Shown here piece by piece: positions 813 to 63,602 of a stretch of 64,000 nucleotides of DNA. The notes under the pieces were generated by a model. The model was not told the origin of the DNA. It worked only from the letters and a program-made list of their open reading frames with translations, and did not search any database. The number at the start of each line of letters is the position of its first letter. Within the stretch, counting starts at the first letter, position 1. The translations under genes were made by a program, and so were the position numbers. Origin of the DNA: Psococerastis gibbosa (taxonomy: Eukaryota; Arthropoda; Insecta; Psocodea; Psocidae). The stretch covers positions 4,154,001-4,218,000 of the forward strand of contig OZ020486.1 in the NCBI GenBank assembly GCA_963971405.1, written 5' to 3'.

Positions 813-898
813 GTGGAGGTTTGTTTACTATATTACGATGAGGAGCCTATATTGCGAGTCCAGTACCGATTCTCCAGATCTTTTGGTGGCTGTTGGTA

Positions 899-2157: not shown

Positions 2158-2386
2158 AATGAATTGGACGAACTTCAATGTGGGTGCAGGAGTCCACGAT
2201 TTTGCCTGTAACTTTTTTCTGCGTTTCGTTTTAAATGATTTGATGAATGAATAATTATATTCTATCTATCGCTATTACATTTTAGTTATCATTATTTCGA
2301 TAGCTCCATTGGTTTAGATAAAAAATAAATCCAAAGTTGGACTTAAAAATCATGGGTGGACGAACTTCAATGTGGTTGGGTTTGTG
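2158..2386 (-). repeat. right IR/DR of the Tc1 element, forms the IR-a coding tail
   Basis: Mirror of the left end. Read on the minus strand it supplies the last 34 codons and the TAA stop of IR-a (2282-2386). The AT of TSD and the terminal CACAAACCC fall directly at the codon after the third membrane segment's basic tail. Confidence 0.8.
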
Positions 2387-4066
2387 TACCTTTATTTTTA
2401 TTGCTCGTGCTAATATTTCAATAAGAAAAACGAAAAAACTCACAAATAGTGAAAATGTTAAAATGTAAAAAGCCCATATGAGATTGCCTAGGCGTAAAGG
2501 CTGGTTGGAGTTAATGCGTTTAATTACCATTTCACGACTAAATTTCAAATCTCTCTCAAAACTCTCTAAATTTTTCCAATAATTATACAATCCTGACTCA
2601 GCAATTTGTAATAATTTTCTACGCATAACGGGAATTAATGGGTGGTTGCGAGGCATGTAAAACGTGTTGGGAAGTTTATTCAGGGGATCTTTGAGGAAAG
2701 AAATTTTGGAAGCTAAAGAAACATTAGGGTACAATCGTCTATAATCATATTCGTCTCTACTTCGAATTCCCATTCTTATATACTTTTTACTGTCTGCAAC
2801 TAGAGACAAGTTGAAGTAATTTTTTATTGACCCATTAGAATTTAAGATTGTTTTCCATGTTTTGGTTTTTGGCTCTTGGGGAATCCAATTAGTGTATGTG
2901 TCCATAATTACGACGTTAAGACCTGCGCGTACTGCATCACCTAATGTTGAATAAGTAGCCTCGTATTCGACTTTGAACAAATTAATAAGCAAAGTGGATT
3001 GGAAGAACCATACTATGAGCAAACTATAACCAGTGAATGACAAACTAAGAAATCTCGATAGATCGTTTTGTTTATTCAAAGCAAAAGACTGGCCAACACT
3101 GATGCGAATTGACTGTAGAATGCAATCCCCTTTAGATAAGTCTTTACGTGACGTAATGGAAAAAACTAGCATAAATAGTGACAAATTAATAATTATGAGC
3201 AACCAAATAGTTCCTGTAAACCCTGAATATATCCCTGATGTCATATACACTCGACTTGGTGCTGCAAGTGACCAAACAATCGTATTTTCAGAAAGACTTG
3301 GTAAAATCTCCCCGTAACGTGTTCGTTCGTAAGTGACCATTATACCTCCATATGCTACGTCAATTTTCCTGTAATGCAGATACAAGTTATACCCTGAAAC
3401 AGAGCCATTGGGGAGTTTAGCTTGAAAGAACGGATAATTATCTGGCCACAAAACCTGACGAACTTTATAACGAAGGTTTTCAGCTATTGTTGTAATGGCT
3501 TTGTCTTCCGGTCCTGTTAATGTGGCAGGGTATGAAAAAGTAGATGAAAATATAGAAAGAATTTTCAGTTCTGGGATTGGAAAACTACTTGAATATCTCT
3601 TATCGAAGAGTCCCGAGTTATTATTAAATACTCCTTGCTGAAAAGAATCAATAATTTGCAAGGTCAGTTTGTCGTCGAAGTTTGTAGCCCATGAATAGAT
3701 TTTGCAGCCTTCTAAATAAGGGACTAACAGGATGATGTCTAGAAGTTTATAATCGTCCCATAGCACATTATAGTCTTTGATTGTCCTTGTAACGATGACA
3801 ACTTTGCCTCGTATGCCTCGTAGTCTTCTATTTGATACTTTTTCGATTATCAAGATGACGTCTGTTTCCATATTGTTGTGAAACTCAAAATCGGTAGAGA
3901 CATAAAGAGGAGAGACTGGCCACATTGCTCGGGGAGGGGCTTCATTTTCTACGTACATGTACAAAGTGTCGGTACTTAGATACGTGGTTGCTACAGCCTT
4001 CAGACAAACCCATGTAGCCAGTGATATCCAACTTGAATTGGGATTCGTCAGTACATGCTGTAACAT
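2282..4066 (-). CDS. IR-a: divergent ionotropic receptor, intronless, transposon-derived tail
   Basis: Predicted 594-residue ligand-gated cation channel subunit of the iGluR-related IR family, which acts in chemosensory neuron membranes. The open frame runs on to 4105 but only through a TTG; the first ATG (4066) aligns with the starts of IR-b and IR-c. Visible in order are an extracellular N-terminal half, the S1 lobe (LRYKVRQVLWPDNYPF, then DVAYGGIMVTYERTRYGEILPS), TM1 (TIWLLIIINLSLFML), a pore-loop region (IRISVGQSFA), TM2 (YSLLIVWFFQSTLLINLF), the S2 lobe and TM3 (LIWAFYILTFSLFVSFFVF). The SYTANLAAF pore motif of true glutamate receptors is absent, as in divergent IRs. No signal peptide is evident, so a short upstream exon is possible. 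The last 34 residues, starting HKPNHIEV, are encoded by the Tc1 right terminal repeat and share nothing with the IR-b and IR-c tails. Confidence 0.88.
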   Translation of the reverse strand: MLQHVLTNPNSSWISLATWVCLKAVATTYLSTDTLYMYVENEAPPRAMWPVSPLYVSTDFEFHNNMETDVILIIEKVSNRRLRGIRGKVVIVTRTIKDYNVLWDDYKLLDIILLVPYLEGCKIYSWATNFDDKLTLQIIDSFQQGVFNNNSGLFDKRYSSSFPIPELKILSIFSSTFSYPATLTGPEDKAITTIAENLRYKVRQVLWPDNYPFFQAKLPNGSVSGYNLYLHYRKIDVAYGGIMVTYERTRYGEILPSLSENTIVWSLAAPSRVYMTSGIYSGFTGTIWLLIIINLSLFMLVFSITSRKDLSKGDCILQSIRISVGQSFALNKQNDLSRFLSLSFTGYSLLIVWFFQSTLLINLFKVEYEATYSTLGDAVRAGLNVVIMDTYTNWIPQEPKTKTWKTILNSNGSIKNYFNLSLVADSKKYIRMGIRSRDEYDYRRLYPNVSLASKISFLKDPLNKLPNTFYMPRNHPLIPVMRRKLLQIAESGLYNYWKNLESFERDLKFSREMVIKRINSNQPLRLGNLIWAFYILTFSLFVSFFVFLIEILARAIKIKVHKPNHIEVRPPMIFKSNFGFIFYLNQWSYRNNDN

Positions 4067-4349
4067 TTTATTATATTGTATCACCTGGTCGTAGACTTGT
4101 TTCAAGTATCAAGAACTCAAGCTTAAAAAACTTAGATTGAAAGTTTAATTCATTTAATTTGCATCTTCAGAGATGAATCTTCTCATTCGCATATTCTTCG
4201 ATGTTCATGGCATACGTGATTTGCCATTTTTGGCCTTTTAAAGTTTTAAATCCTATTTCTTGACATGTATCAGGAAAGGCGTATGAAAACTTGAAATATC
4301 TTTTTCATGTTCACAACATAAGCCGTGTGCTTTGACACATTACCTATAT

Positions 4350-4359
4350 ACATCAACAC
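4350..4359. repeat. candidate PLE-1 target-site duplication, left copy
   Basis: ACATCAACAC here and again at 7553-7562, in direct orientation at the two outer edges of PLE-1. Ten identical bases at both borders suit a target duplication. Confidence 0.45.
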
Positions 4360-4526
4360 AAATAATTAGATTACTCGTGACTTCGTGGTATTTCATTTTA
4401 ATAAACAAAAAATAACAAAAACTTAGAGTTTTAGAAAAACTTGTTATAACAACCCGAATTAGTAAAACCCAAATAATCGTTAAGAAATTAACTTTGTCCA
4501 AGAAACCCACTTGTGTTAGTATAAAA

Positions 4527-4565
4527 CCCTGAGCGCTTTCGGCAAGAACTGCCATCTACAGAGGG
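4527..4565 (-). ncRNA. hammerhead-like motif of PLE-1, main copy
   Basis: Reverse-strand twin of the motif at 7386-7424 with the same paired stems and the same CTGTAGA core, located 3' of the endonuclease frame. Identity of the variant core in both arms means the change predates or accompanied this insertion. Confidence 0.5.
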
Positions 4566-4707
4566 AAACCCACTAGCACAGTTACACCTTATCTGCGATT
4601 TGAGACTTGCTCAACTCGAGGAGAAGATGCAAATGTGACTAGGGAGAGGAAACCTTGGTTTATATAGGACTGGGAGCGGGGGGAGGAGGGGGTGGGAGGG
4701 GGCGTGG

Positions 4708-6820
4708 CTAGTTACCTATTCCTAACCTACTAGCTAGATCTATTAGAGGGGATGATTGTGTGAATGTTATGTCGTTTGTTAATTTTTCCCTATTGTGTAA
4801 AGCTCTTTTGATTTCAACATTTTCAAAAAAATTTAAAGTGTAACTTTTCTTTATTTTGTGTAGGGCTGTCCAATTGTGAGGATCGAATGTGTGGTTTTCC
4901 GAGTTAAGGTGTTTCGCGAATGTGCTGTTGGTGTTGAAGTCTCCTATACCTGTTATATGTTCTCTGACCCTAGTTTTAAAGCTTCTGCCTGTTTGGCCTA
5001 TGTAAATTGCGTTACAATCGTTACAATTTAGACGATAAACTCCATTGCCTTTTTCTTTTTCTGGTTTGGTTTTGCAGTTCATGAGTTTATTGGCCAAATT
5101 GTTGCGATTGTACGGGGCTGGTGTTTTGTCTGTTGTAGAAGAAATGAGGTTACTAATTTTTTGTGTGATTTTTTCTATGTATTGTATCCTGAAATATGAT
5201 TTATTGGTTACCGGGTTTAAGCTCCCTGGGGGGGTAAATTAGTTTGAGTTTGTGTTTGATTTTGTGATGTCGTAGGATTCTGTCTATTAGGTTGAGATTG
5301 AAATTGTTATTTTGGGCAATTTGTTTTATTGTATTTAATTCATTATTATAGTTGGTTTGATTCATAGGGATGTTAAGGAGTCGAAAAATCATACTATGGA
5401 ATGCTGCGTGTTTGTGCTGGAATGGGTGAGAAGAATCATCAGGGATTATATTATCGCTATGGGTTTCTTTACGAAATATCTTGAAGTCTAGGGTACTATT
5501 ATTTTTGGTGATGGTGAGGTCTAAGAAGTTCAGGGAGTTGTTTTCTTCTACTTCCATGGTAAATTGGATTTTTGGGTGAATTGTGTTGATAAAACTTAAG
5601 AAATTGTCTAGTTGTCTGTTACTTCCTGTCCAAATGCAGAAGATATCATCCACATACCTTGTCCAGAAAGATATACATTTAACTAGGGGATTTTTATTGT
5701 GTAGAAGTTTGTGTTCGAAGTTATCCATAAAAATTTCAGCAAGAAGGGGAGAAAGGGAAGAACCCATAGGTAGGCCTATTTTTTGTTGGTAGTAGTCGGA
5801 TTCGAAGCGGAAATAGTTTTGATGAGTGCATGTGTCTAACAGAAGGAGGGTCTCAGAAATAAGGCTGTTCGAGGTGTTATTGTGATAGAGTGACTGGGCA
5901 ACTAATTTACGTACTTCGGGTACGGGAATATTAGTAGACAGATTTTTGACATCGAAAGAGACGAGTTTGGCATTGCTGGATAAGGAAAGGTGCTTAAGGT
6001 GGGAAACCAACTCGAATGAGTTTTTGACGCTGTGGCGGGGTGAGAAGTTTGATAGCTCGCGAATGTGTTTGTTGAGAAAACTAGCTACTTTGCTGGCTGG
6101 GGCACTGTTATACGAAACTACTGGGCGGATAGGTTGATTGGGTTTATGAAGTTTAACCAGACCAAAAAATGAAGGAGCTACGGGGTTCATGTTGGTACAT
6201 TTATAGGCTATATCTTGGGGTATCGTGTTAGAGCTTTGTTTAATGGCTTTTTTGGTTGCTTTTTGGAATTTGTTTGTGGGGTCTACTTTAAGTTTTACGA
6301 ATGTGGATTCATCAGAAATGAGGTCTAAGACTTTAGAAACATAATCATGGGTAGGTAAAATGACAATAGAATTTCCTTTATCCGCCTTGGTGAGTGTAAG
6401 GTTATCTTGGGCTAGTTTCTTTTTTATAGATTTAGTGTTATCGTTTTTGTGTGTAAGTTTGACGTTTTTCAGAATATCTGCTGCTATGTGTTTTTCATTA
6501 TTGTGGTTTTTTAGGCTAAATTCAGTGTCTGACATTAAGTTGGTTAACGTGTTTTTGTTTAGACCTATATCGGGGCAATACTTGAGGCCCTTGTTGAGAA
6601 GTTCCATTTCTTTTGTGTTGAAAATCGTGTTAGATAAGTTGACGGTACGAGGATAGAATTTATGTGTTGTGATGGGTAGTGTAGTGAGTGTCTGCGCTGA
6701 AGGCGTGAGGCCTTGACCTACCCCAGTCTGCATCGATCGATGAAGGGGGTTAGACCGGGAACGTACTTTCGTCCTGCACATCTGATGTTTCGTGTCGCGA
6801 TGTGATGTGTGATAACTCAT
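4708..6820 (-). pseudogene. PLE-1 reverse transcriptase plus GIY-YIG endonuclease, one frameshift
   Basis: Encodes the RT-endonuclease fusion that drives target-primed insertion of Penelope elements. The RT part (6820-5201) starts with FYPRTVNLSN, contains motif A (FDVKNLSTNIP), motif B (GLPMGSSLSPLLAEIF) and the catalytic YVDD box (RYVDDIF), then LNFLDLTI. The endonuclease part (to 4708) has GVYRLNC...YIGQTGRSFKTRVREH and a downstream His/Asn block (FAKHLNSENHTF), the GIY-YIG core of PLEs. The two parts are in different frames. Reading across a run of seven G on the plus strand (5228-5234) one base shorter joins them through a linker beginning YPPGSLNPV and running into NNLANKLMNC. So one indel in a homopolymer separates this copy from an open frame of about 700 codons; a sequencing error there is possible. 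The 5' end may be truncated. Confidence 0.85.
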
Positions 6821-6858
6821 GAATATAAATAATATTATTGAATATTGTTATTGAATAT

Positions 6859-7243
6859 CAATAAACTCATGAACTGCAAAACCAAACCAGAAAAAGAAAA
6901 AGGCAATGGAGTTTATCGTCTAAATTGTAACGATTGTAACGCAATTTACATAGGCCAAACAGGCAGAAGCTTTAAAACTAGGGTCAGAGAACATATAACA
7001 GGTATAGGAGACACCAACACCAACAGCACATTCGCGAAACACCTTAACTCGGAAAACCACACATTCGATCCTCACAATTGGACAGCCCTACACAAAATAA
7101 AGAAAAGTTACACTTTAAATTTTTTTGAAAATGTTGAAATCAAAAGAGCTTTACACAATAGGGAAAAATTAACAAACGACATAACATTCACACAATCATC
7201 CCCTCTAATAGATCTAGCTAGTAGGTTAGGAATAGGTAACTAG
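6859..7243 (+). pseudogene. PLE-1 second copy: endonuclease domain only
   Basis: Begins inside the linker (NKLMNCKTKPEK) and repeats the GIY-YIG endonuclease to its stop at 7243, nearly identical to the minus-strand copy; one visible change is D-T for D-F before NTNS. It lacks the RT and an authentic start codon, so it is a 5'-truncated copy. Confidence 0.85.
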
Positions 7244-7283
7244 CCACGCCCCCTCCCACCCCCTCCTCCCCCCGCTCCCAGTC

Positions 7284-7292
7284 CTATATAAA
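7284..7292 (+). promoter_or_regulatory. possible PLE-1 TATA box in the 3'/pLTR region
   Basis: TATATAAAC follows a C-rich stretch (about 7246-7278) just after the endonuclease stop. The mirror copy is at 4658-4666 on the minus strand. Penelope elements are known to carry promoters in their repeated ends, so this may drive a downstream element copy; activity is inferred. Confidence 0.35.
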
Positions 7293-7385
7293 CCAAGGTT
7301 TCCTCTCCCTAGTCACATTTGCATCTTCTCCTCGAGTTGAGCAAGTCTCAAATCGCAGATAAGGTGTAAGTGTGCTAGTGGGTTT

Positions 7386-7424
7386 CCCTCTGTAGATGGC
7401 AGTTCTTGCCGAAAGCGCTCAGGG
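7386..7424 (+). ncRNA. hammerhead-like motif of PLE-1, variant core
   Basis: Stem I is CCCT (7386-7389) with AGGG (7421-7424). The core reads CTGTAGA (7390-7396) instead of CTGANGA. Stem II pairs GGCA (7398-7401) with TGCC (7407-7410), followed by GAAA (7411-7414), palindromic stem III AGCGCT (7414-7419) and cleavage-site base C (7420). The layout equals that of the PLE-2 and PLE-3 motifs, including the single T after the core. The T in place of the conserved A may weaken or abolish cleavage. Confidence 0.5.
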
Positions 7425-7585
7425 TTTTATACTAACACAAGTGGGTTTCTTAGACAAAGTTAATTTCTTAACGATTATTTGGGTTTTACTAATTCGGGTT
7501 GTTATAACAAGTTTTTCTAAAACTCTAAATTTTTGTTATTTTTTGTTTATTTACATCAACACCACAAACCATAATAATAAGTACC

Positions 7586-7740
7586 AGGGCCGTGCGGCTC
7601 TATGAGGCTACTGTTCTATAGGTCTAGCAATACAACCAATTACGATATGTCTAAAGGGGCGCCGGAGGGGGAGCGCCGGAGGGGGAGCGCCGTTTCCCAA
7701 ATCTTGCCTCAACCGGAAAAACTGCACCGCACGGCCCTGA
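7586..7740. mobile_element. short inverted-repeat element (MITE-like)
   Basis: About 155 bp with ends CAGGGCCGTGCGGC and GCACCGCACGGCCCTG. Near its centre the 15-bp unit GGCGCCGGAGGGGGA-like is repeated about two and a half times (7659-7692). No coding capacity. Confidence 0.6.
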
Positions 7741-10279: not shown

Positions 10280-11998
10280 TTATTTATTTATTATTTTATT
10301 CATCTGAGACTGCAATACATTTGACGTGATTTTTATAAACGTAGGATTCGAAAATAACTCCACAAGAAAAATGGAACAACTAGCAAAAAGAGAGAAGACA
10401 ATGAACCGAAAAGCCCAAATTAAATTACTCATATGCAAAGGCTGGTTAACATTAAAACGTTCTGAAGTCACTTGTGCATTGTACAGTTTATACCTTTCCC
10501 AGTTATACCAGTTTTCAAATAGTCCAGATTCGATAATTTGAAGTAATTTTTGACTGAAAACTGGTATAAGCGGATGATTCTTGGGCATATAAAATGCGTT
10601 AGGCAGTGTAAATAGAGGTTCTTTTAGAAAAATTATTTTTGATGCCTTAGAAACATTTTGAGACAATAATTTATAAGAATATTCGTCCGAATTTCTAATA
10701 CCTAACTTTATATACTCATTGGCATTTGTTACAATAAGTGACATATTGAAATCTTTTTTTATCACAGATTTGGAACTTAATACAGTTTCCCATATGCCTA
10801 CTGGTTCTACTGGAAGCCATTGGGCAAATGTGTCAGGTATTATTACGCTGAGACCTGCACTTACAGCTTCTTCCAAAGTTTCATAACCTGCTTCAAATTC
10901 TACCTTAAATAAATTAATTAGCAAAGTCGATTGATGAAACCATACAATGTGTGAACTATACAGAGCAAATATGAAACTGAGGAATCGCGATGAGTTATTG
11001 TGCGAATTTATTGGAAATGATTGTGATACACTAGTGCGAATTGCATATAAGATACATTGGCTTGGGGATAATTCCTTGTAGGAAGTAATAGATAAAGCTA
11101 TTGAGAATATGATCAAAGTAGTGATTATTAGTGACCAAATAATTCCAGAAAACCCTGAATATATTCCCGAAGTTACAGACTTGGGTCCTGGTGCTGTTAA
11201 AGACCACTCAATTGTGCTTTGTGAAAAGCTGGGCACAATATCTCCGTAGCGAAAGCGATCGTAGCTTATTATAATAGCGCCATATGCTATGTCTATATTC
11301 CTATAGTGTAAATATGATACAAAGCCGGAGATTGATCCGTTGGGAAGGAGAATCCGAAAAAATGAGTTGTCATCAGGCCAAAATACTTGGCGAATTGTAA
11401 ATCCCAAATTTGCAGCTATAGTTTTGATTACTTTATCTTCGGGCCCGGAGAGTGTGACAGGAAATGCATAACTGGCTGAAAATTTGGCAAGAACTTTTAG
11501 TTCCTTATCGGGAAAGTCAGCAAGGTTTCTTTTAGGGAATAAATTAAAATTATTGAATAACACATCCAGCTTGCCAGAATCCGTCGTATGAGCCGTGAGC
11601 TCAAAATTTTCAGTTCTAAAATAGATACGGCACTGCTCCAAAACCGGAACAATGAGAACAACATCCAATAACTTGTAACTGTCCCACAACACATGGTAGT
11701 CTTTAATGTCACTAGTTACAACCACAATTCGTCCTCTAATACCTCGTAATCGTCTATCCGATATATGTTTTATAATAATTATTGCATCAGTTTCAATGTT
11801 GTTATGAAATTCGAAATCATTTGAGAGATACAGAGGTGATGAAGGCCACATTGCTTTTGGAGAAGTTTCGTCTTCTGAGTAAAAATACAATGTATTGTCA
11901 CTTAAGTACTTGTTTGTTATGGTCTGAAGGCATAACCATGTAGTCAGTGATATCAAACTTGAAGTACGGTTGACATATACAGATAATAATTCTTGCAT
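10280..11998 (-). CDS. IR-b: divergent ionotropic receptor, intronless
   Basis: A 572-residue IR-family subunit starting at a true ATG (MQELLSVYVN). S1 covers about residues 185-270 (VIKTIAANLGFTIRQVFWPDD; DIAYGAIIISYDRFRYGDIVPSF). TM1 is about 284-304, the pore region about 314-330 (IRTSVSQSFPI), TM2 about 338-362 (ending WFHQSTLLINLF), S2 about 365-520 and TM3 about 524-547. The short basic tail ends LQSQMNKIINK. The iGluR SYTANLAAF motif is missing. It is a close paralogue of IR-c, and whole stretches are identical (LWDSYKLLDVVLIVPVLEQC). Single-exon structure and clustering are typical of lineage-specific IR expansions, usually linked to taste or contact chemosensation; the ligand is unknown. 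Like its relatives it begins without an obvious signal peptide. Confidence 0.9.
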   Translation of the reverse strand: MQELLSVYVNRTSSLISLTTWLCLQTITNKYLSDNTLYFYSEDETSPKAMWPSSPLYLSNDFEFHNNIETDAIIIIKHISDRRLRGIRGRIVVVTSDIKDYHVLWDSYKLLDVVLIVPVLEQCRIYFRTENFELTAHTTDSGKLDVLFNNFNLFPKRNLADFPDKELKVLAKFSASYAFPVTLSGPEDKVIKTIAANLGFTIRQVFWPDDNSFFRILLPNGSISGFVSYLHYRNIDIAYGAIIISYDRFRYGDIVPSFSQSTIEWSLTAPGPKSVTSGIYSGFSGIIWSLIITTLIIFSIALSITSYKELSPSQCILYAIRTSVSQSFPINSHNNSSRFLSFIFALYSSHIVWFHQSTLLINLFKVEFEAGYETLEEAVSAGLSVIIPDTFAQWLPVEPVGIWETVLSSKSVIKKDFNMSLIVTNANEYIKLGIRNSDEYSYKLLSQNVSKASKIIFLKEPLFTLPNAFYMPKNHPLIPVFSQKLLQIIESGLFENWYNWERYKLYNAQVTSERFNVNQPLHMSNLIWAFRFIVFSLFASCSIFLVELFSNPTFIKITSNVLQSQMNKIINK

Positions 11999-13783
11999 CG
12001 TTACAGCCGTTGATAACGTCTCCGCTGTTCTCGCGGACTTATTAAATTAAGTTATAGCTATCAAATTGATGCATTACATTGCCATGGATGTTCATCTCTT
12101 CTCAGACCATATTCATTTATTGCTTCTAATTGTGTGGAGCCATTGCCTAAACTTCATTATCATTATTATCATCATTGGTGCTCTTGAACAACATTTTATT
12201 TATTACACCTTTTTTGTCGGTGTCAACTATTAAAACTTGTGGGGATGGAAGGTATAGTGTTACACTTGAAAGGCTGCTTTACCAATTAATTCAAACTTGT
12301 GACTATTCTCAAATTTAAACTGCTTTATTGCAACCAATCCGTAGTGTGCCGTGGGTAATTATTCGTCTTTAAGTTTCTAAATCTGGTGCATGTATCGGAT
12401 GAATTCTTTACGATATAGATATTCTCCTTTCACATGCATTGAAGCCTGAATAGCTTATTCTTCTTCATGCAACGAAATATTAAGATAGCACTTATTAATA
12501 TCAGTATTGCTAATTTTTCTCACTCGAACTTACTCAACATGCACCGATGGATAGTCAGCATCATAACTTTTTCCCAGTGGTCTTATTAATCCGGTGTGGT
12601 TGTACCTACTTAAATCAGGTGCGATTTGTAGTAAAATCTTTCAAACCAATTTTTAATAATAAGTACATCGCGTAACTGTGTAAGTTAAGTCTGTTATCCA
12701 ACAAACCGATGGTGCGGAACTAAACTCAAATTCAAAAAGTCAATATAGAGGCAATGGCATCCAAACATGAAAACATGATAAGGGATTGTTAGGACTTCAT
12801 GTGTAAAAAAAAAAATAATAATAATTATGGGTTGCATCCAATTCAATAAATCAACATAAGTGGCAATTTTATTGGTATAATTACTGAACATAGCATCATG
12901 ATTATTATACAATAGGCCTATATCTGTTATACTAAAGTACGGCAATAATTGTTTGGGGAACTTCATCAGTCTACATCGTCGGCTAAATTTGATGGATTAG
13001 GCTATCTGTGGTAGATTCCCTGCTCATGAAGTATCTTTAGATTGTGGTATAAAATTTAGGTCTATTATTTGGTGGGCTTATATAGGTGACACAACACGGG
13101 GCTACACACATCTACTTTTATATGCACCGCCCATGGGACAAATATATCAAATTTGCCCATTGCACCATACTTTTTACTACTTAGCCTACTACTGAATTTG
13201 TGCATATACTCTACAAAATTGCGAAATTTTTCTAGAACTCTCTCCTTTCCTTAAATTTAAATGGTTAAAAATGTTATGATTAAAACTTGTCGATATTTTC
13301 TTATATTAATAGGGCAAGTAGGCCTATCATTAAGGGCGGCTTCATAGTAGGATCTCCAATCTTCAAGCACATCCGATACACAAAACTATAATTTATGTTT
13401 TTGCCCCCTGCGCCGTTATTTCGAAAATTATGATTTAATACTTTCCCTGAATACAATGGCTACTTATAGACTTGTTTTATTTAATGACTATTATCACTCC
13501 CATATTATTCCGTTAATGCCACTGGCGGTTATGTGCCAAAAATAAAGTCATGCGTGCACCAAACTACACATGGAATATCTACACTTTCCTTAAAACCCCT
13601 CATGTCATGTCAAAAATATCAAATATTAAATCTACATCGGTAATTTACTTTGTCTTGCCCATTTCATTATAAGTATGGCTTAATAATTTCTGGAAACACA
13701 GGAAGAACATTTCGTTGTAGCTGATGACTAGAATTTATGAACCCATCACAATGGAAAAACGACAGACATTACACAGCAATTTA
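11999..13783. other. IR-b upstream / IR-c downstream spacer, no gene
   Basis: 12060-12240 resembles 15585-15790 (IR-c upstream), and 12500-12560 resembles 16095-16150, so the promoter side of the receptors was duplicated with the genes. 13060-13500 resembles the IR-b downstream flank. Open frames here are not preserved between copies and are not called genes. Confidence 0.55.
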
Positions 13784-15499
13784 TTACTTATTGTATTCTT
13801 CATTCTGAGACTGCAATAGATTTGTCCTGATTTTTATACACCTAGGCTTCGATAATAATTCTATAAGTAAAATGGCACCACTAGCAAAAAGGGAGAAGAT
13901 GAGTAACAGAAAAGCCCAAATTAAATTACTTATACGCAAAGGCTGGTTAACATTAAATTGTTCAGTATTCACTTGCGAATTGTGCAGTTTAAACCTTTCC
14001 CAGTCATACCACTTTCTAAAAAGTCCGGATTCAAAGATTTGAAGTAATTTTTTACCAATAGTTGGAATAAGGGGGTGATTCTTTGGCATACAAAATGCGT
14101 TAGGTAATGTAAACAGAGGTTCTTTTAGAAAAATTATTTTTGATGCAGAAGAAACATTTTGGGACAATACTTTATAAAAATATTCGTCTGCGTGCCTAAT
14201 ACCTAACTTTATATACTCATTCGCATTTATTAAAATTAGTGACATATTCAAATCTTTTACTAACGCATATTTGGAACTTAATATGGTTTTCCATATGCCT
14301 AAAGGTTCTTCTGGAAGCCACTGACGAAATGTATCAATTATTATTGCATCGAGACCTGCACTTACAGCTTCTTCCCAAGTTTCATAGCCTGCTTCAAATT
14401 CGGTTCTAAATAAATTAATAAGCAAAGTCGATTGATAAAACCATACGATGTGTGAACTATACAGAGCAAATATTAAACCGAGAAATCGTGATAGGTTGTT
14501 AAGTGTATTTAACGCAAATGATTGTGATACACTAGTGCAAATTGTATATAAGATACATCTACTTGGGGATAATTCCTTGTAGGATGTAATAGATAAAGCT
14601 ATTGAGAATATGATCAAAGTAGTGATTATTAGCGACCAAATAATTCCAGAAAACCCTGAATATATTCCCGAAGTCACAGACTTGGGTCCTGGTGCTTTTA
14701 AAGACCATTCAATTGTGCTTTGTGAAAAGGTGGGCACAATATCTCCGTAGCGAAAGCTATCATAGCTGATTATAATAGCGCCATATGCTATGTCTGCTTT
14801 CCTGTAATGCAAATATGAAGCATAACCGGAGATGGATCCGTTGGGAAAATGAATTCGAAAAAATGTGCTGTCATCAGGCCAAAATACTTGACGAATCGTA
14901 AATCCCAAATTTGCAGCTATCGTTTTGATTACTTTATCCTCTGGCCCGGTGAGTGTGGCAGGAAATGCATGACTGGGAGCGAATTTTGCAAGAATTTTTA
15001 GTTCCTTATCGGGAAAGACAGCAAGGTATCTTTTAGGGAATAAATTAAAATGATTGAATAACATATCCAGCTTGCCAGAATCCGTCTTATGAGCTGTGAG
15101 CTCAAAATTTTCAGTTCTAAAATAGATACGGCACTGCTCCAAAACCGGAACAATGAGAACAACATCCAATAACTTGTAACTGTCCCACAACACATGGTAG
15201 TCCTTAATATCACTAGTAACAATCAAAACTCGTCCTCTAATACCTCGCAATCTTCTATCCGATAGATGTTGTATGATAAGTATTGCATCAGTTTCAATGT
15301 TGTTGTGAAATTCGAAATTATTTGAAAGGTAAAGAGGTGATGAAGGCCATATTTCTTTTGGAGGAGTTTCGTCTTCTAAGTAGAAATACAAAGTATTGCT
15401 ACTTAAGTACTTGTTAGTTATGGTCTGCAGACATAACCATGTAATCATTGATACCCAACTTGAGTTATGGTTGGTACATGATGATAACAATTCCTGCAT
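13784..15499 (-). CDS. IR-c: divergent ionotropic receptor, intronless
   Basis: A 571-residue IR-family subunit. The frame extends two codons beyond the first ATG through GTG, so the start is placed at 15499 (MQELLSSCTN), aligned with IR-b. The architecture is the same: S1 (VIKTIAANLGFTIRQVFWPDD), TM1 (GIIWSLIITTLIIFSIAL), pore region (ICTSVSQSFAL), TM2 (IVWFYQSTLLINLF), S2, and TM3 (LIWAFLLLIFSLFASGAILL), with tail LLQSQNEEYNK. Differences from IR-b gather in the N terminus and S2 (for example DAIIIDTFRQWLPEEPLG), the ligand-contacting lobe. The reading frame is intact, so both copies appear functional. The inferred role is a chemosensory receptor subunit that probably needs a co-receptor IR. 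Confidence 0.9.
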   Translation of the reverse strand: MQELLSSCTNHNSSWVSMITWLCLQTITNKYLSSNTLYFYLEDETPPKEIWPSSPLYLSNNFEFHNNIETDAILIIQHLSDRRLRGIRGRVLIVTSDIKDYHVLWDSYKLLDVVLIVPVLEQCRIYFRTENFELTAHKTDSGKLDMLFNHFNLFPKRYLAVFPDKELKILAKFAPSHAFPATLTGPEDKVIKTIAANLGFTIRQVFWPDDSTFFRIHFPNGSISGYASYLHYRKADIAYGAIIISYDSFRYGDIVPTFSQSTIEWSLKAPGPKSVTSGIYSGFSGIIWSLIITTLIIFSIALSITSYKELSPSRCILYTICTSVSQSFALNTLNNLSRFLGLIFALYSSHIVWFYQSTLLINLFRTEFEAGYETWEEAVSAGLDAIIIDTFRQWLPEEPLGIWKTILSSKYALVKDLNMSLILINANEYIKLGIRHADEYFYKVLSQNVSSASKIIFLKEPLFTLPNAFCMPKNHPLIPTIGKKLLQIFESGLFRKWYDWERFKLHNSQVNTEQFNVNQPLRISNLIWAFLLLIFSLFASGAILLIELLSKPRCIKIRTNLLQSQNEEYNK

Positions 15500-18460
15500 C
15501 CTCACAGTGGTTGATCACTTTTCCACAAACTCTTTTGGATGCCTATCGATTATTCTGCGATGTTAAGTGATGTTATTGATATCAATTTGAGGCATACATA
15601 ACATTGCAATCGATTGACATCGCTTCTCTGACCATATATTATAACTTTTATGCATATAATGGCATTCTTGGTTATTTTCCCGTTGGCGTCATTCTTTTCC
15701 TTAACTTTGCCTTAACTATCATTGGAAATGATGTTTTAGAAGAAAATATTTATCAACATCTTCTTTTTGTCGGTCTAGTAGCGTCAAAAATTTTAACTAT
15801 GCTATTTGAGCTTGCACGCGTAGGGGAGTTATAAATTGTGTTAACACTGAATGAGGGTTTTAACAATTTAAAGGCAATGTTAACTTGAATCTATTATCAA
15901 CTAGCCTATTTCTACGACCATTCCATATTTTGCTGTGAGTTTTTTAAGTAAGGTGTAAGTTTCTTAATCCGCGGTTGGTGAGGAGTATCCTCGCATATAC
16001 TAGTATAACTTGCATTGAACCTTTTGGAATAGCTGTCACAACATTTAGCATAGTATTGATTGACTCTTATTTAGGCTATCAGCAATGACTAAGAACAGCA
16101 TTGTTAACTTTTCTCACTTGAACTTGATTCAACATGCATTGATAGACAGCTGATGTGGTATACTAAAGACAAACTACCGTATAGCTACTGTAATAGTCTC
16201 CTACACTAAACAGGAAAAATAATTTAGTATGTGTATATAAATGCAAATAAATTTACAAGTGGTAATTTTATTACTGAAATCTGTATACCGGCCGGTACTT
16301 ATGATAATTTCTGCCATGCATTGAAGTATGGCAATATTATTGTGTGCTAAATTTGATTGATTTCCAACCTATAGTTTCCCTTATTAGTTGTTAGGCTTAA
16401 GCACACGAGTCTGGCAGCAATTATTAATAAAGGGCGTCAGACAATCAGACATGCTGCCACGCTCTTTATTGCATCTAGGCCTATTTTGCGATATATATAT
16501 TTTTTTCATTTATTCACATAGGGCTAGGGACAATTTATTAACGGGTGCAGCGCATGGGTAGAAGGGTGCTCTAAGCGACATTTTTTAATGAGTTATTTCA
16601 GTCAGAGGCGTGTATATACTCCCCCCCCCCCCAAATGGGAAAATGTAAGACGAATCGTAAGGCGATCGTATTGTCTGTACAGTTTGTACATAGTGAAATG
16701 GCACATGTCTGGAAAGTTCAATTTTATTGAAGTCAAGACATTTCAAGGATGGAGGGGGGGGGGCTGCAAATTCTGCCACCCTTGGCACACGCGTAGTCCG
16801 CCTATTTAGAAATTCATCATTTAGAGAGGGGGTCATAATTGATTACTGTATACGTACCTAACAATTCTCTATGCATGATATATACAGTATACAATGATAA
16901 AAACAATGGCGTTATTAGAAATTGTACAAAACTACAACACGACAATCAGCAACTTGAAAAACAATCCATTGCGTGTCAGCATATAAAATTCATCACAGTC
17001 CTCGATCTATTGAAATCAATAAACGCGTATAGCCTATAAAATTTGTACGTGACCGTTCTCAGATTGGTCTATATTGGCACGTGTAAAACTGCGCAAAGCC
17101 ATTGGTGATGTAAATAACAACCCCGCGGTGCGGGGGCCGGGGGGCACTATTGACTATCACTCATAAAAAAGATGAAATAATGAGCCAAAGTGGGACGCAC
17201 CAGAGGTCTTTCGGGGGCCTACGCAGAGCTCATATAGCCACCAACAGGTATTGCAATAGCGGATTCTGGATTTTGCTCCTGATGCCAGTGGGTGGTGTAG
17301 CCATATTTTTGTAGTTAGTTTAGTTTTAGTGTTTCGTCTCCGAGGTACAGACTCATGGTTTCTGGGATCAGTATTCTGCCACCCTGATGCCATTATTGTC
17401 AGTGCACTCCCAAAGGTCGTCCAGAGTGCGCATAGGTCAGAGGGCGCATTGAATATGGGTGACTGTTGTCTTGGGTCACAGACTCACACTGCATTCGCTA
17501 ATGGTGTCCTCTGAGGCCAGTCTATATATCGGTTCTGCGTGGGTGGCTCGACGACAGTTTGTTACCTGACGTCGTTGATGGTCTGACTGGGAACCAAGGT
17601 GGGGGTTCAATGGGTATTGACTGCCGGAACCTTATACAGGACTTGAGTTTTGTAGTGATAGTAGAGGTAGATTTAAGTAAAAACTCACCGAGTCTAAAAG
17701 GCAGGCCAGTATGCCGGTGGCCATATAGCTTGTGGAGACACAGAGAATTTTATCGGTACTTGACTGACTTGCAGCAACTCGCAGTTCAACCTATAGTTGA
17801 ACACTGTGTGAACCCACTAGCGGATCTAGAAATTTGTAAAGGGGGGGGGGCTGAACTTTTGGATGGAAAGCCTATAGTCAGGAGGTCTATGATGGAGTGA
17901 AGACTTTTTGAAAGTGAGTTTTATCTTGTGTAACTTGAGTAAGAGAAGAGGGGGGGGAGGGGCTTTCCCCCATTAGCCCATAGCTGGATCCGCTAGTGTG
18001 TGAACCCACTATACTGCTATGTTCACTGACCTCAATGACCGTGTACATATGATACATATTGAAATGAAATAAAATGAAAACGTCTGGACAGTAGGTGAGC
18101 TTTAGCCCGGAAGGGGTACTCGACAAGCTAACTTATTGCCAGTAACCTGTCAGACTTGTCACCCCAGCTGGTCCGCTGGCATTTGGCAATTTGTGTGGCT
18201 GTTTTTGAGTAGCCTCGCTATGGTATGGTAGGAATACCCGAACCATAGCATGTACAAATTGTTAGTTGAGCATACCCGAACTAGCTGAGACAAGTGCAAC
18301 CAAGCAAGAAAAGGAACCGGTATGGGCAAGTTGGACCGTGCCCCCCCCCCCCTCCCCAACTTTACGCCCCCGGTATAGCCCATAGGTACCTATAGATACT
18401 CATATGCTTTTATATATGTATTATGCATATGTACTCATATCTTATGTTATCTGACCCGGA
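15500..18460. other. gene-poor spacer with homopolymer runs
   Basis: 15585-16165 is the duplicated IR-c upstream flank. After that come AT-rich DNA and several long poly-C or poly-G runs (16620-16632, 16756-16763, 17840-17849, 18341-18352). No exon with convincing splice sites or conserved residues was found. Confidence 0.45.
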
Positions 18461-57749: not shown

Positions 57750-60700
57750 CTACAAGAGAACTATTTCCCGGCGCAGGCATTCAGACCACAGACATTCATC
57801 TACCAGTCCTTCTGGGCAACTTGGCTTTTCCGGAACTTTCTTCTCACAGCAATTGTATTCGTACCCATCTTCGCATGACTTTCTCTCAGCTTCTAACCTC
57901 TGATACTGATCACATCCAACGACCGCCCAAGTGATTGGTTGGCAGCCAGTCCACCAACAGTTGGTCAGCCCAGTCTTTGGCGGTTCCGTTGTCGTTGCAG
58001 ATACCACCGGTTTACTGACGTCTGGACAGCAGAGGAATTCGTGCCCGCCGTCGCGTGACCGTTTACTCTTCTCCAAACGTTGGTACTGCTCGCATCCTCG
58101 TACGCCCCATATGCTAGGGTGGCATCCCGTCCACCAACAGCCGGCTGCTGTTGCTTCTGGGGCTATTGTGGTCGTCGTCATCCTCTCATTACAGCAGAAG
58201 AATTCGTCTCCTCCGTCGCAGGCTCTTTTCCCCTCTTCAAACCTCTCGTAAGACTCACATCCTCGTATTCCCCATGTTTTCGGCTGGCATCCTGCCCACC
58301 AGCAGTCCGGATCTGCTCTCGAAACTGTGGACCGATTCACTGTTGGATGTTGCTGAGGTGATAGCTCGGAGAGAGCTGCTGTGGACCAAGAGAAATTTTT
58401 TTGTTGATGAATATAAATGGTAGTATTATGCATCTGATTGAATTTAATTGTGACTCAAGCATTCAAATAGAAAAAATAAAAAATCTGCTTATGCTTTACG
58501 TTATGGGGCCATTTTCGCTCCAAGGGAAAGACCCTCATTTAAGCACGCCTCATTAACAATTAAGGTGAAGAAGAGCAGCACACCTAGTAAATAAAATAAA
58601 TAAATAAAAAAAATATTTATTATATTACTAAGCCATGGGATTGAATGAAACCCTTTGTTTATTCCAATACACCCATAATTAATTAAATCGAACATACTCG
58701 GTGTTCCGTTCCATTCAATGGGTCCAGCTACTCCCACTAAAGTTTTTTTAATAAATCTACTGTTAGTTGATTTATGACACTGTAATTGAATCTATACTAC
58801 ATACTGTATGTTACTTCTATTTTGACCCACCATTAACCCCTCACCCCCTCAAAAAATGGGCTGGATCCGTCCCTGTCCATGAGTGAGACCTGGGGGACTC
58901 GTTTACTCATAGTTGAATTAATCGCCTGTGTATAAGAGTACCCAGGGGTATTCATTGACCCACAAAACAGCGGTCAACGGACTTACTAACTTAAAATATG
59001 GAAATATGCAATTTAACTAGTCAGACCGTTTGTCCTATATGAGGAAGTCGTATAGCGGTATAGGAAAGTAGGGGATTCCCAGATACTTAATAATGAACCT
59101 GGAAAAAGAGGAAAATCCAGTTACTGGAATATTGATGTTATACTGATTGTCACACTAGGCACGGGATGATGGCAAGAGCGGTGGCAATTTGCCAGGTTGG
59201 CCTGGACTCCGACAGGTCCCCAGTGCACTGACCCTTTCCCATTTTCCTTCTTGTCAGCACACACTGCACCGTATAAATCACTAACTTAGTGGTAACTGCT
59301 CTATCTTCCTTCCTTGAGGTTCTTCAAAACGTGTTAATCAGTTGAAATCTCGGAATCGAAAATTTCAACCTTAAGGCCAAACCGGAGACTTTTGACCTTG
59401 AACGTTGAGCGTTGAATACATAGAAATATAATAGAACTGGAGCGGCGGGAGCCAAAATATGCCTTACGAGGCACCCGTTAACCATAAGCCAACTATCAGA
59501 GATAAGTACCAACGCAAAAAATATCTTAAAATATCTTAAAAGTCTTACACACTGCAGCATAGCAAAGCGGATACCTGGACCCGGCCCAAAACTCTGTAGT
59601 TTAGTAGTTAGCTTGTGCAGGCTATTTCCCCGCCGATTTGGGTACTTATCTTGTGCAGGCTACACTAGCAACCATATTGATAACGGTCTCTAGCCACGGG
59701 ATGGTTGAATATCCATTTTACAAACAAAGCCCCGCGTCGCGTACCTGTTCCGTATTTCACTTTTTATTATTTCAAATAATTGCAGTTTTACCTATTGCTG
59801 GCGCTTTACTGTCAAATTAAGTGTTCACATTTCAAGGCATATGCATTTAACTACAAATTACAAAATACAAATTAAAAATTAGTTCAGCCGAATGTTCCGG
59901 GGGTAAGAGAAGGCTTTATAGCCCTAACGCCGCTAGGTTGGCTAAGTAATAGAACAGAAAGTCTTTATTTATTTAATACAGTATTGTTTTAATACAGTAT
60001 CTCTAACGAAAGAAAACACATTTTTTAGCATGTAAGATGTTTAATGCAATGCCAGTGGAAAGAACCGGTCCGAGTTTACTTGAACATGCTTTCCAATTTA
60101 TCAAGTAGTAGCTAGAGAAAAAGAGTAATTTCATGGTAAATAATTTTCCTATTGTTAAATTTCGGATACCTCGGGGGGGGGGGGGGGGGGGGTTGTCCAT
60201 CTGACGTCACTGGAGGTGAGGTAAATTCTAGATAGGTCAGACCAACACATTACCTCACAGTAATAATGGCAGGGCACGCAATGCATTTGACCGTGAATTT
60301 ACTTTCATTTTTTCAACAAAACTTTTTTTCCACAAAACTAAATAGTTTTCTGCGAAAGCAACCTGGCCCGTTTCGTTACTGAATTTAACATCTAAAACAT
60401 GCCTGAAGGTAGAAATCAACGATCGAAAGGTTTCACAGAAAAATTATTTTTTAGTCAATTTTCATTAAAATTTAATTATTTCTATTGTTTTACCCCAGAA
60501 GCAAACTATCAAGGGGCAGCGACCCCCCCCCCCCCGCATTTTATTAACATTAATTACAGCTACAATATATGTGAATTCAAAAGAAATCGTTGGAGCCGTT
60601 TTTGAGAATTAATTTTTCTTGCTTTCCAATTTATACGTAGTATAAGGAAAGCTTTGTGATGGTCGAAATTTTCGATTCCCAGATTTCAACGGATTTACAC

Positions 60701-62182: not shown

Positions 62183-62334
62183 CACGCCCCCACATATAAT
62201 TTAAATAAACAAATAAATCATAAATAGGCCTGCTAACTTAACCAAGCCCTTCATAAGTCCTAACTATTGCAGTACTTAGGTACTCAATGTGCACAAGAGA
62301 GACTATACTCATCGCAGATGAGGCAGTAACAGTT

Positions 62335-63602
62335 GTTGGCTTGTTGCCGGGTACTGGACACTCGTGTAGGTTGTAATGGACAATATGTATACCGCTAAAC
62401 TGGTCTCTGGCTTGCTGTAGGCTATAATGCTCAGTATGTTTACCGCTAAACTGGTCTCTGGCTTGCTGTAGACTATAATGTTCAGTGTGTTTACCGCTAA
62501 ACTGGTCTCTGGCTTGCTGTAGGCTATAATGTTCAATATGTTTACCGCTAAACTGGTCTCTGGCTTGCTGTAGGCTATAATGTTCTGTATGTTTACCGCT
62601 AAACTGGTCTCTGGCTTGCTGTAGGCTATAATTTTCAGTATGTTGACCGCTAAACTGGTCTCTGGCTTGCTGTAGGCTATAATGCTCAGTATGTTTACCG
62701 CTAAACTGGTCTCCGGCTAGCTATAGGCTATAATGTTCAATATGTTTACCGCTAAACTGGTCTCTGGCTTGCTGTAGGCTATAATGTTCTGTATGTTTAC
62801 CGCTAAACTGGTCTCTGGCTTGCTGTAGGCTATAATTTTCAGTATGTTGACCGCTAAACTGGTCTCTGGCTTGCTGTAGGCTATAATGCTCAGTATGTTT
62901 ACCGCTAAACTGGTCTCCGGCTAGCTATAGGCTATAATGTTCTGTATGTTTACCGCTAAACTGGTCTCTGGCTTGCTGTAGGCTATAATTTTCAGTATGT
63001 TGACCGCTAAACTGGTCTCTGGCTTGCTGTAGGCTATAATGCTCAGTATGTTTACCGCTAAACTGGTCTCCGGCTAGCTATAGGCTATAATGTACAGTAT
63101 TTATTCCGCTAAACTAGTCTCTGGCTAGCTATTGGCTGTAATGTACAGTATTTATACCGCTAAACTGATCTCCGGCTAACCATAGGCTGTAATGTACAGT
63201 ATTTATACTGCTAAATTGGTCTCTAGCTTGCTGTAGGCTAAACTAGTCTCTGGCTAGCTATTGGCTGTAATGTACAGTATTTATTCCGCTAAACTAGTCT
63301 CTGGCTAGCTATTGGCTGTAATGTACAGTATTTATACCGCTAAACTGAACTCCGGCTAACTATAGGCTGTAATGTACAGTATTTATACTGCTAAATTGGT
63401 CTCTAGCTTGCTGTAGGCTAAACTAGTCTCTGGCTAGCTATTGGCTGTAATGTACAGTATTTATACTGCTAAACTGATCTCCGGCTAGCTATAGGCTGTA
63501 ATTTACGGTATGTATATCGCTAAATTGATCTCTGGCTTGCTGTAGGCTATAATGTTCAGTATGCTTACTGTTAAACTGGTCTTTGGCTAGCTATATGCTA
63601 TA
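62335..63602. repeat. 51-bp tandem array upstream of the CWW-repeat gene
   Basis: About 24 units of CCGCTAAACTGGTCTCTGGC... with a 51-bp period (for example units at 62392, 62443, 62494). Unit variants recur in blocks: TGTTCTGTATG, ATTTTCAGTATGTTG, ATGCTCAGTATG and CTCCGGCTAGCTATAGG follow in the same order two to three times between 62570 and 63090. A 180-bp block is repeated at 63237 and 63417. The array begins about 150 bp upstream of the ATG at 62182. The period is a multiple of three, so open frames across it are not evidence of coding. Confidence 0.9.

Follow-up and report, generated by a model that had tools for sequence, protein, structure and literature searches.

How does an ionotropic receptor gene come to take its last codons and its stop codon from a transposon, and is the receptor still a working gene? 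The question is raised by IR-a, a receptor ORF of the psocid Psococerastis gibbosa, and we address it here from the window, that is, the whole stretch of 64,000 nucleotides that was analysed, bases 4154001-4218000 of contig C3, and from searches of the genome around it. The features discussed are collected in Table 1.

A receptor frame that ends in a transposon arm

On the minus strand, the IR-a ORF ends ...IKIKV-HKPNHIEVRPPMIFKSNFGFIFYLNQWSYRNNDN-TAA. The V is codon 560 (GTA, 2389-2387), and its last two bases are the TA at which the Tc1-like element begins; everything that follows, stop codon included, belongs to the right terminal repeat of the element. The earlier note on this DNA had described exactly this arrangement, both for the last 34 codons with their TAA and for the TA target within the preceding Val codon, and the coordinates bear it out. 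The end of a Tc1-like transposon closes the receptor ORF, and this observation is correct and more than a chance resemblance.

Table 1. Features of the IR-a locus and its surroundings (window positions unless a contig is given)
Feature	Position	Strand	Remarks
IR-a, complete ORF	2282-4066	minus	594 codons + TAA (560 host codons + 34 transposon codons)
IR-a, host part	2387-4066	minus	560 codons; ATG first, GTA (Val) with the TA target last
IR-a, tail	2282-2386	minus	34 codons + TAA within right terminal repeat of Tc1-like element
Tc1-like element	899-2386	plus	internally deleted; inverted arms, TA on both sides, dispersed relatives
Left inverted repeat of element	899-1122	plus	
Left TA flank of element	897-898		
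Right TA flank of element	2387-2388		inside Val codon
Place of 5-bp deletion	2343/2344	minus	shifts tail frame; from comparison with 28 copies and genome pattern search
CAA codon	2309-2311	minus	shifted frame typically has TAA; extends tail by 9 codons
Candidate splice donor	2384-2392	minus	AAG then GTACAC; exon would end at 2390
Two AATAAA motifs	2391-2402	minus	in last host codons; starts at 2402 and 2396
IR-b	10280-12046	minus	paralogue with own tail; uninterrupted ORF
IR-c	13784-15514	minus	paralogue with own tail; uninterrupted ORF
Fourth receptor ORF	C3:4152125-4153789	minus	just left of window; 40% identical to IR-a

The ORF belongs to a tandem of four on the minus strand (IR-c, IR-b, IR-a and a fourth one outside the window), and IR-a is apparently a single-exon gene that was tandemly duplicated. 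Queried alone, IR-a matched no Pfam family and no PDB entry, and its identity as a receptor therefore rests on a 23-member profile, built from IR-a and 22 of 29 paralogue loci (seven were left out, and several members consist of the matched stretch only). This profile matches ionotropic glutamate receptors, with iGluR delta-1 as the best match (E 1.4e-26). At E <= 0.01, Pfam finds PF24061, a putative ionotropic receptor ligand-binding domain, in eight of the 23 members, PF00060 in six and PF00497 in one. At the level of the family profile, the matches point to IR/iGluR homology, ligand-binding and channel parts alike; by gene family, these would be ionotropic receptors of the insect type. The family is large: searched at E <= 0.001, the 409-Mb genome gives 72 matches, IR-a counted, and two of them (C14:9045775 and C67:49157) sit at copies of the transposon arm. 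A search of this one genome returned a single IR-a locus, and no second one that could represent an empty allele.

IR-a shares 55-56% identity with its two neighbours in the window, and the alignment extends through the last hydrophobic segment. The TA at which the element inserted lies about 10 residues past the conserved Glu that ends the last membrane helix, such that 10 host residues are kept and 34 are added. The earlier note had held that the tail was replaced and that the membrane segments were left intact: the frame is indeed cut past the last helix, and in the alignment with IR-b and IR-c the membrane segments appear intact. A structure predicted from the alignment of the three window receptors reached a mean pLDDT of 31.9, too poor to use.

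The element itself bears the TA target duplication of the Tc1/mariner superfamily and terminal inverted repeats that are common to its dispersed copies. Its arms are 92% complementary between 900-938 and 2344-2382 and 83% complementary between 942-1035 and 2252-2345, which agrees with the mirror-image relation described earlier. The 109-bp stretch at 2282-2390 is a dispersed repeat in the same genome: counting itself, it has at least 40 scored matches, which are 90-100% identical. We aligned the window copy with 28 other copies, namely 27 of 30 matched loci and L002, some of them truncated at one end; of the three loci omitted, one was the window and two were left halves of copies that the alignment already contained. 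Relative to the majority of these copies, the window element lacks 107 bp after 1519 and 18 bp after 1537; these gaps are complete in no other copy, and L047 shows a separate loss that overlaps them. The coding frames of the window copy are interrupted: one piece of the broken frame yields a weak DDE_3 match (22.3 bits against a curated cut-off of 28.6; E 0.00013) and the other matches no Pfam family. In the genome, 810-898 of the left flank matches nothing else, and 721-809 has six short matches. The latter segment is tRNA-like (SINE-like, as judged by eye), with pieces 78-94% similar to six other places; ARAGORN found no tRNA in the window. Further out, an inverted repeat (481-513 and 638-670) is visible in the sequence and possibly marks another mobile element; the repeat search, which started at 500, gives 500-513/638-651 for it. 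Beside its left inverted repeat, L002 carries a hairpin-like insert (L002:2856-3001) that L008 shares and the window copy lacks.

Other repeats lie in the window. Between IR-a and IR-b (4340-7605), minus-strand ORFs match RVT_1 (E 6.4e-12) and GIY-YIG (E 4.1e-05) and belong to what we take to be a Penelope-like element, whose GIY-YIG end recurs in inverted orientation at 6842-7243. Related inverted segments lie at 4340-4555 and 7396-7605, the nearest beginning about 270 bp upstream of the IR-a ATG. At the far end, a tandem array (62365-63240) repeats a 51-bp unit 17.2 times with 90% matches, related rows continuing to 63605, and a 160-aa open frame with a 17-residue repeat (62238-62720) runs through part of it. 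In a 234-aa ORF at 57750-58454, a motif rich in Cys and Trp (CWWxGCxP) occurs three times; this ORF has no Pfam match.

Making of the 34-residue tail

The typical right end of the family reads GGTTGGGTTG-TA and that of the window copy GGTTGGGTTTGTG-TA. The first tail codons of IR-a span three bases that are absent from the family arm, and these extra bases make the right end of the element non-canonical. Read in the phase of IR-a, a typical arm would encode 24 codons followed by TAA, and hence a tail of 24 residues. The observed tail has 34 codons because a 5-bp loss after 2343 shifts the frame and because the TAA met in the shifted frame reads CAA. The changed base of this codon (2311) is shared with one of the 28 other copies, L065, and is absent from the other 27. 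Judged against these copies, the present tail is not simply the product of the insertion; the frameshift, the three extra bases and the stop-to-sense difference are needed too. The 5-bp deletion, the 3-bp gain at the junction and the CAA may each have arisen either before or after the insertion.

A genome-wide pattern search allowing up to two mismatches found the exact deleted form at the window locus only; the other two places that it met, C14 and C67, differ by one base. These two share their flanks (98.8% over 3.1 kb) and represent one locus or its duplication. L073 and L002 (together with the near-identical copy of L002 on C67) have a 5-bp loss at the same spot that leaves GGACG rather than GGACT, while L048 has lost 4 bp and L051 8 bp there and L047 is truncated at this point. 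By the look of these copies, this spot of the arm is prone to deletion. We also considered the 5-bp deletion as an inherited trait of a subfamily and rejected it: L002 and L073 are placed elsewhere in the tree, and the copies nearest to the window copy are without it, L048 and L051 among them carrying their other losses; the branch supports around the window copy are moderate (61-73) and leave this reading some room.

Among the 29 copies examined, the window copy alone has a long open frame entering its right arm. At the right edge of the window copy it measures 574 codons (from stop to stop, hence including the stretch before the ATG) versus at most 72 at the 28 other copies; frames at left edges reach at most 65 codons in the other copies and 38 in the window copy, the tested edge being different from the true element end in truncated copies. 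As for the tail that was lost, we tried to read it from the left flank: joining the empty site gives a 22-residue tail unlike those of the paralogues; since this reading changes if the three extra bases hide a different TA, we do not assign the lost tail from it.

The paralogues provide a measure of what a tail may be in this family. IR-a has 44 residues after the last-helix Glu, IR-b 25 and IR-c 24, in line with the earlier description of their tails as different and shorter. Across 22 members, IR-a included, the tails past the conserved Glu run from 4 to 65 residues (23 members were examined, L016 being left out for a gap at the Glu position). Past the last helix, the paralogues show no conservation of their tails, which suggests that replacement of a tail is easily tolerated.

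Age of the insertion and state of the receptor

The element copy carries 46 private substitutions in about 1490 bp, private meaning common to at most one other copy, and 2384-2385 being left out as a misaligned junction. Its private divergence is thus about 3-4%, and its terminal branch in the tree is 0.041. Because some of these changes may be older, the private divergence is an upper bound on the divergence since insertion. Under the same load, the 560 host codons would be expected to have gathered 3.2 stops and 3.4-5.6 indels (the latter from the 3-5 private indels of the element); no stop and no frameshift is observed, an outcome whose neutral probability is 0.0004-0.0025. That the host codons stayed open despite this load argues that the receptor was probably under selection with the element already in place, an argument which is weaker if part of the private divergence predates the insertion. 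Over the longer term IR-a has evolved as a gene, its unique differences being distributed 140/103/243 over codon positions 1/2/3 in 554 codons; dN is 0.329 to IR-b and 0.342 to IR-c, with dS undefined for the former and saturated (2.4) for the latter, YN00 giving values for the IR-b/IR-c pair only.

The tail offers a different picture. It holds one true substitution in 105 bp for about three expected (four more, at the misaligned junction, are not counted), a low count that fits constraint weakly and is yet within chance, and the mirror-image left arm is equally low with two private changes in 105 bp. The tail also contains two indels in its 105 bp, the frameshifting 5-bp deletion and the 3-bp gain. 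Neither the private changes nor the comparison with the left arm gives any sign of constraint on the transposon tail, in a test of 105 bp from one genome that has little power.

Taken together, we consider it probable that a Tc1-like insertion replaced the tail of a receptor that still works, and that the new tail is a tolerated, neutral appendage. The element, now internally deleted, would have inserted at the TA past the last-helix Glu and severed the original cytoplasmic tail, leaving the frame to run into the right arm up to the first stop that it met; the further changes of the arm would then account for the 34 residues seen today. The receptor body would have stayed intact and probably functional because the family lacks constraint on tails after the last helix. 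Transcription to the transposon stop, translation of the tail and its neutrality are what we infer from the DNA.

Other readings and comparison with known systems

The earlier note had called this a clear case of transposon sequence turned into receptor coding sequence. That the ORF ends in the arm stands; the word clear exceeds the evidence, given that both a candidate splice donor and polyadenylation motifs fall at the junction. The element could be spliced out if the donor at the junction paired with a left-flank acceptor, which would give a host-encoded tail. Removal of Tc1 by splicing has reportedly been seen in a C. elegans study, the sole AG/GTR between 2281 and 2500 falls exactly at the junction, and candidate acceptors exist in the left flank, e.g. 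CAACAG with an exon start at 889. However, the acceptors have poor pyrimidine tracts (8-11 of 20), the paralogues have uninterrupted ORFs and motifs this short easily arise by chance, and we regard splicing as unlikely. Alternatively, transcripts could be cleaved and polyadenylated at or just past the junction, in which case the tail and stop would not be translated as drawn and the gene would be impaired. Beyond the two AATAAA motifs of the last host codons, a scan from 2420 to 1 meets only one other AATAAA, at 963, and one ATTAAA, at 1474, and IR-c has an AATAAA that overlaps its own stop; yet the motif alone says little and the host frame was kept open, which makes early polyadenylation distinctly unlikely.

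The remaining readings concern the fate of the protein. IR-a could be a young pseudogene that the insertion silenced or disabled and that has yet to decay: the insertion falls within the coding sequence, the native 3' end is lost and the Penelope-like element lies close upstream. The absence of stops and frameshifts from the 560 codons speaks against this, unless much of the private load predates the insertion, and we hold it to be quite improbable. At the other extreme, it is very improbable that, after a one-step swap of the tail in a receptor that kept working, the frameshifted, stop-to-sense arm now tunes trafficking or partners. A tail recruited to serve the receptor in trafficking, stability or binding would fit the open frame and the few substitutions, but it has to contend with a frameshift and a junction change inside the tail, with conservation not above that of the left arm and with family tails that are unconserved, and is extremely improbable. 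Exaptation, or a functional new part of the receptor, is unsupported. The tolerated appendage on a working receptor thus remains our preferred reading.

The IR-a case overturns nothing established. Host coding regions are known to contain transposon sequence, a kind of event of which IR-a is a well-bounded example, and one study cautions that the coding potential of such TE-derived sequence is low on average (PMC2203978). A literature search of partial coverage, conducted chiefly by title, returned no published title that describes a transposon-encoded IR tail. The locus exemplifies a receptor family that tolerates a transposon insertion where the protein lacks evident constraint, and it indicates that indels, and not the insertion alone, can alter a transposon tail. 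Should IR-a be expressed, the locus would be a simple natural experiment on the importance of IR tails.

Comparison with known systems places the locus at the meeting of three of them. Like the divergent insect ionotropic receptors (IRs), the genes described here are tandem uninterrupted ORFs with an iGluR-type body by profile and variable tails; unlike them, IR-a has its tail and stop within a transposon. The element resembles other Tc1-like elements of the Tc1/mariner superfamily in its TA flanks, long inverted repeats and many copies, its weak DDE_3 match lying below the curated cut-off, and departs from them in being internally deleted and in a right tip that differs from the typical one by three bases. 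Finally, as in other transposon-derived coding ends of host genes, a host ORF runs into the TE and there acquires its final codons and its stop; in contrast to exonised TE cases, the IR-a frame, as drawn from the DNA, reads directly into the terminal repeat of a DNA transposon and would need no splicing.
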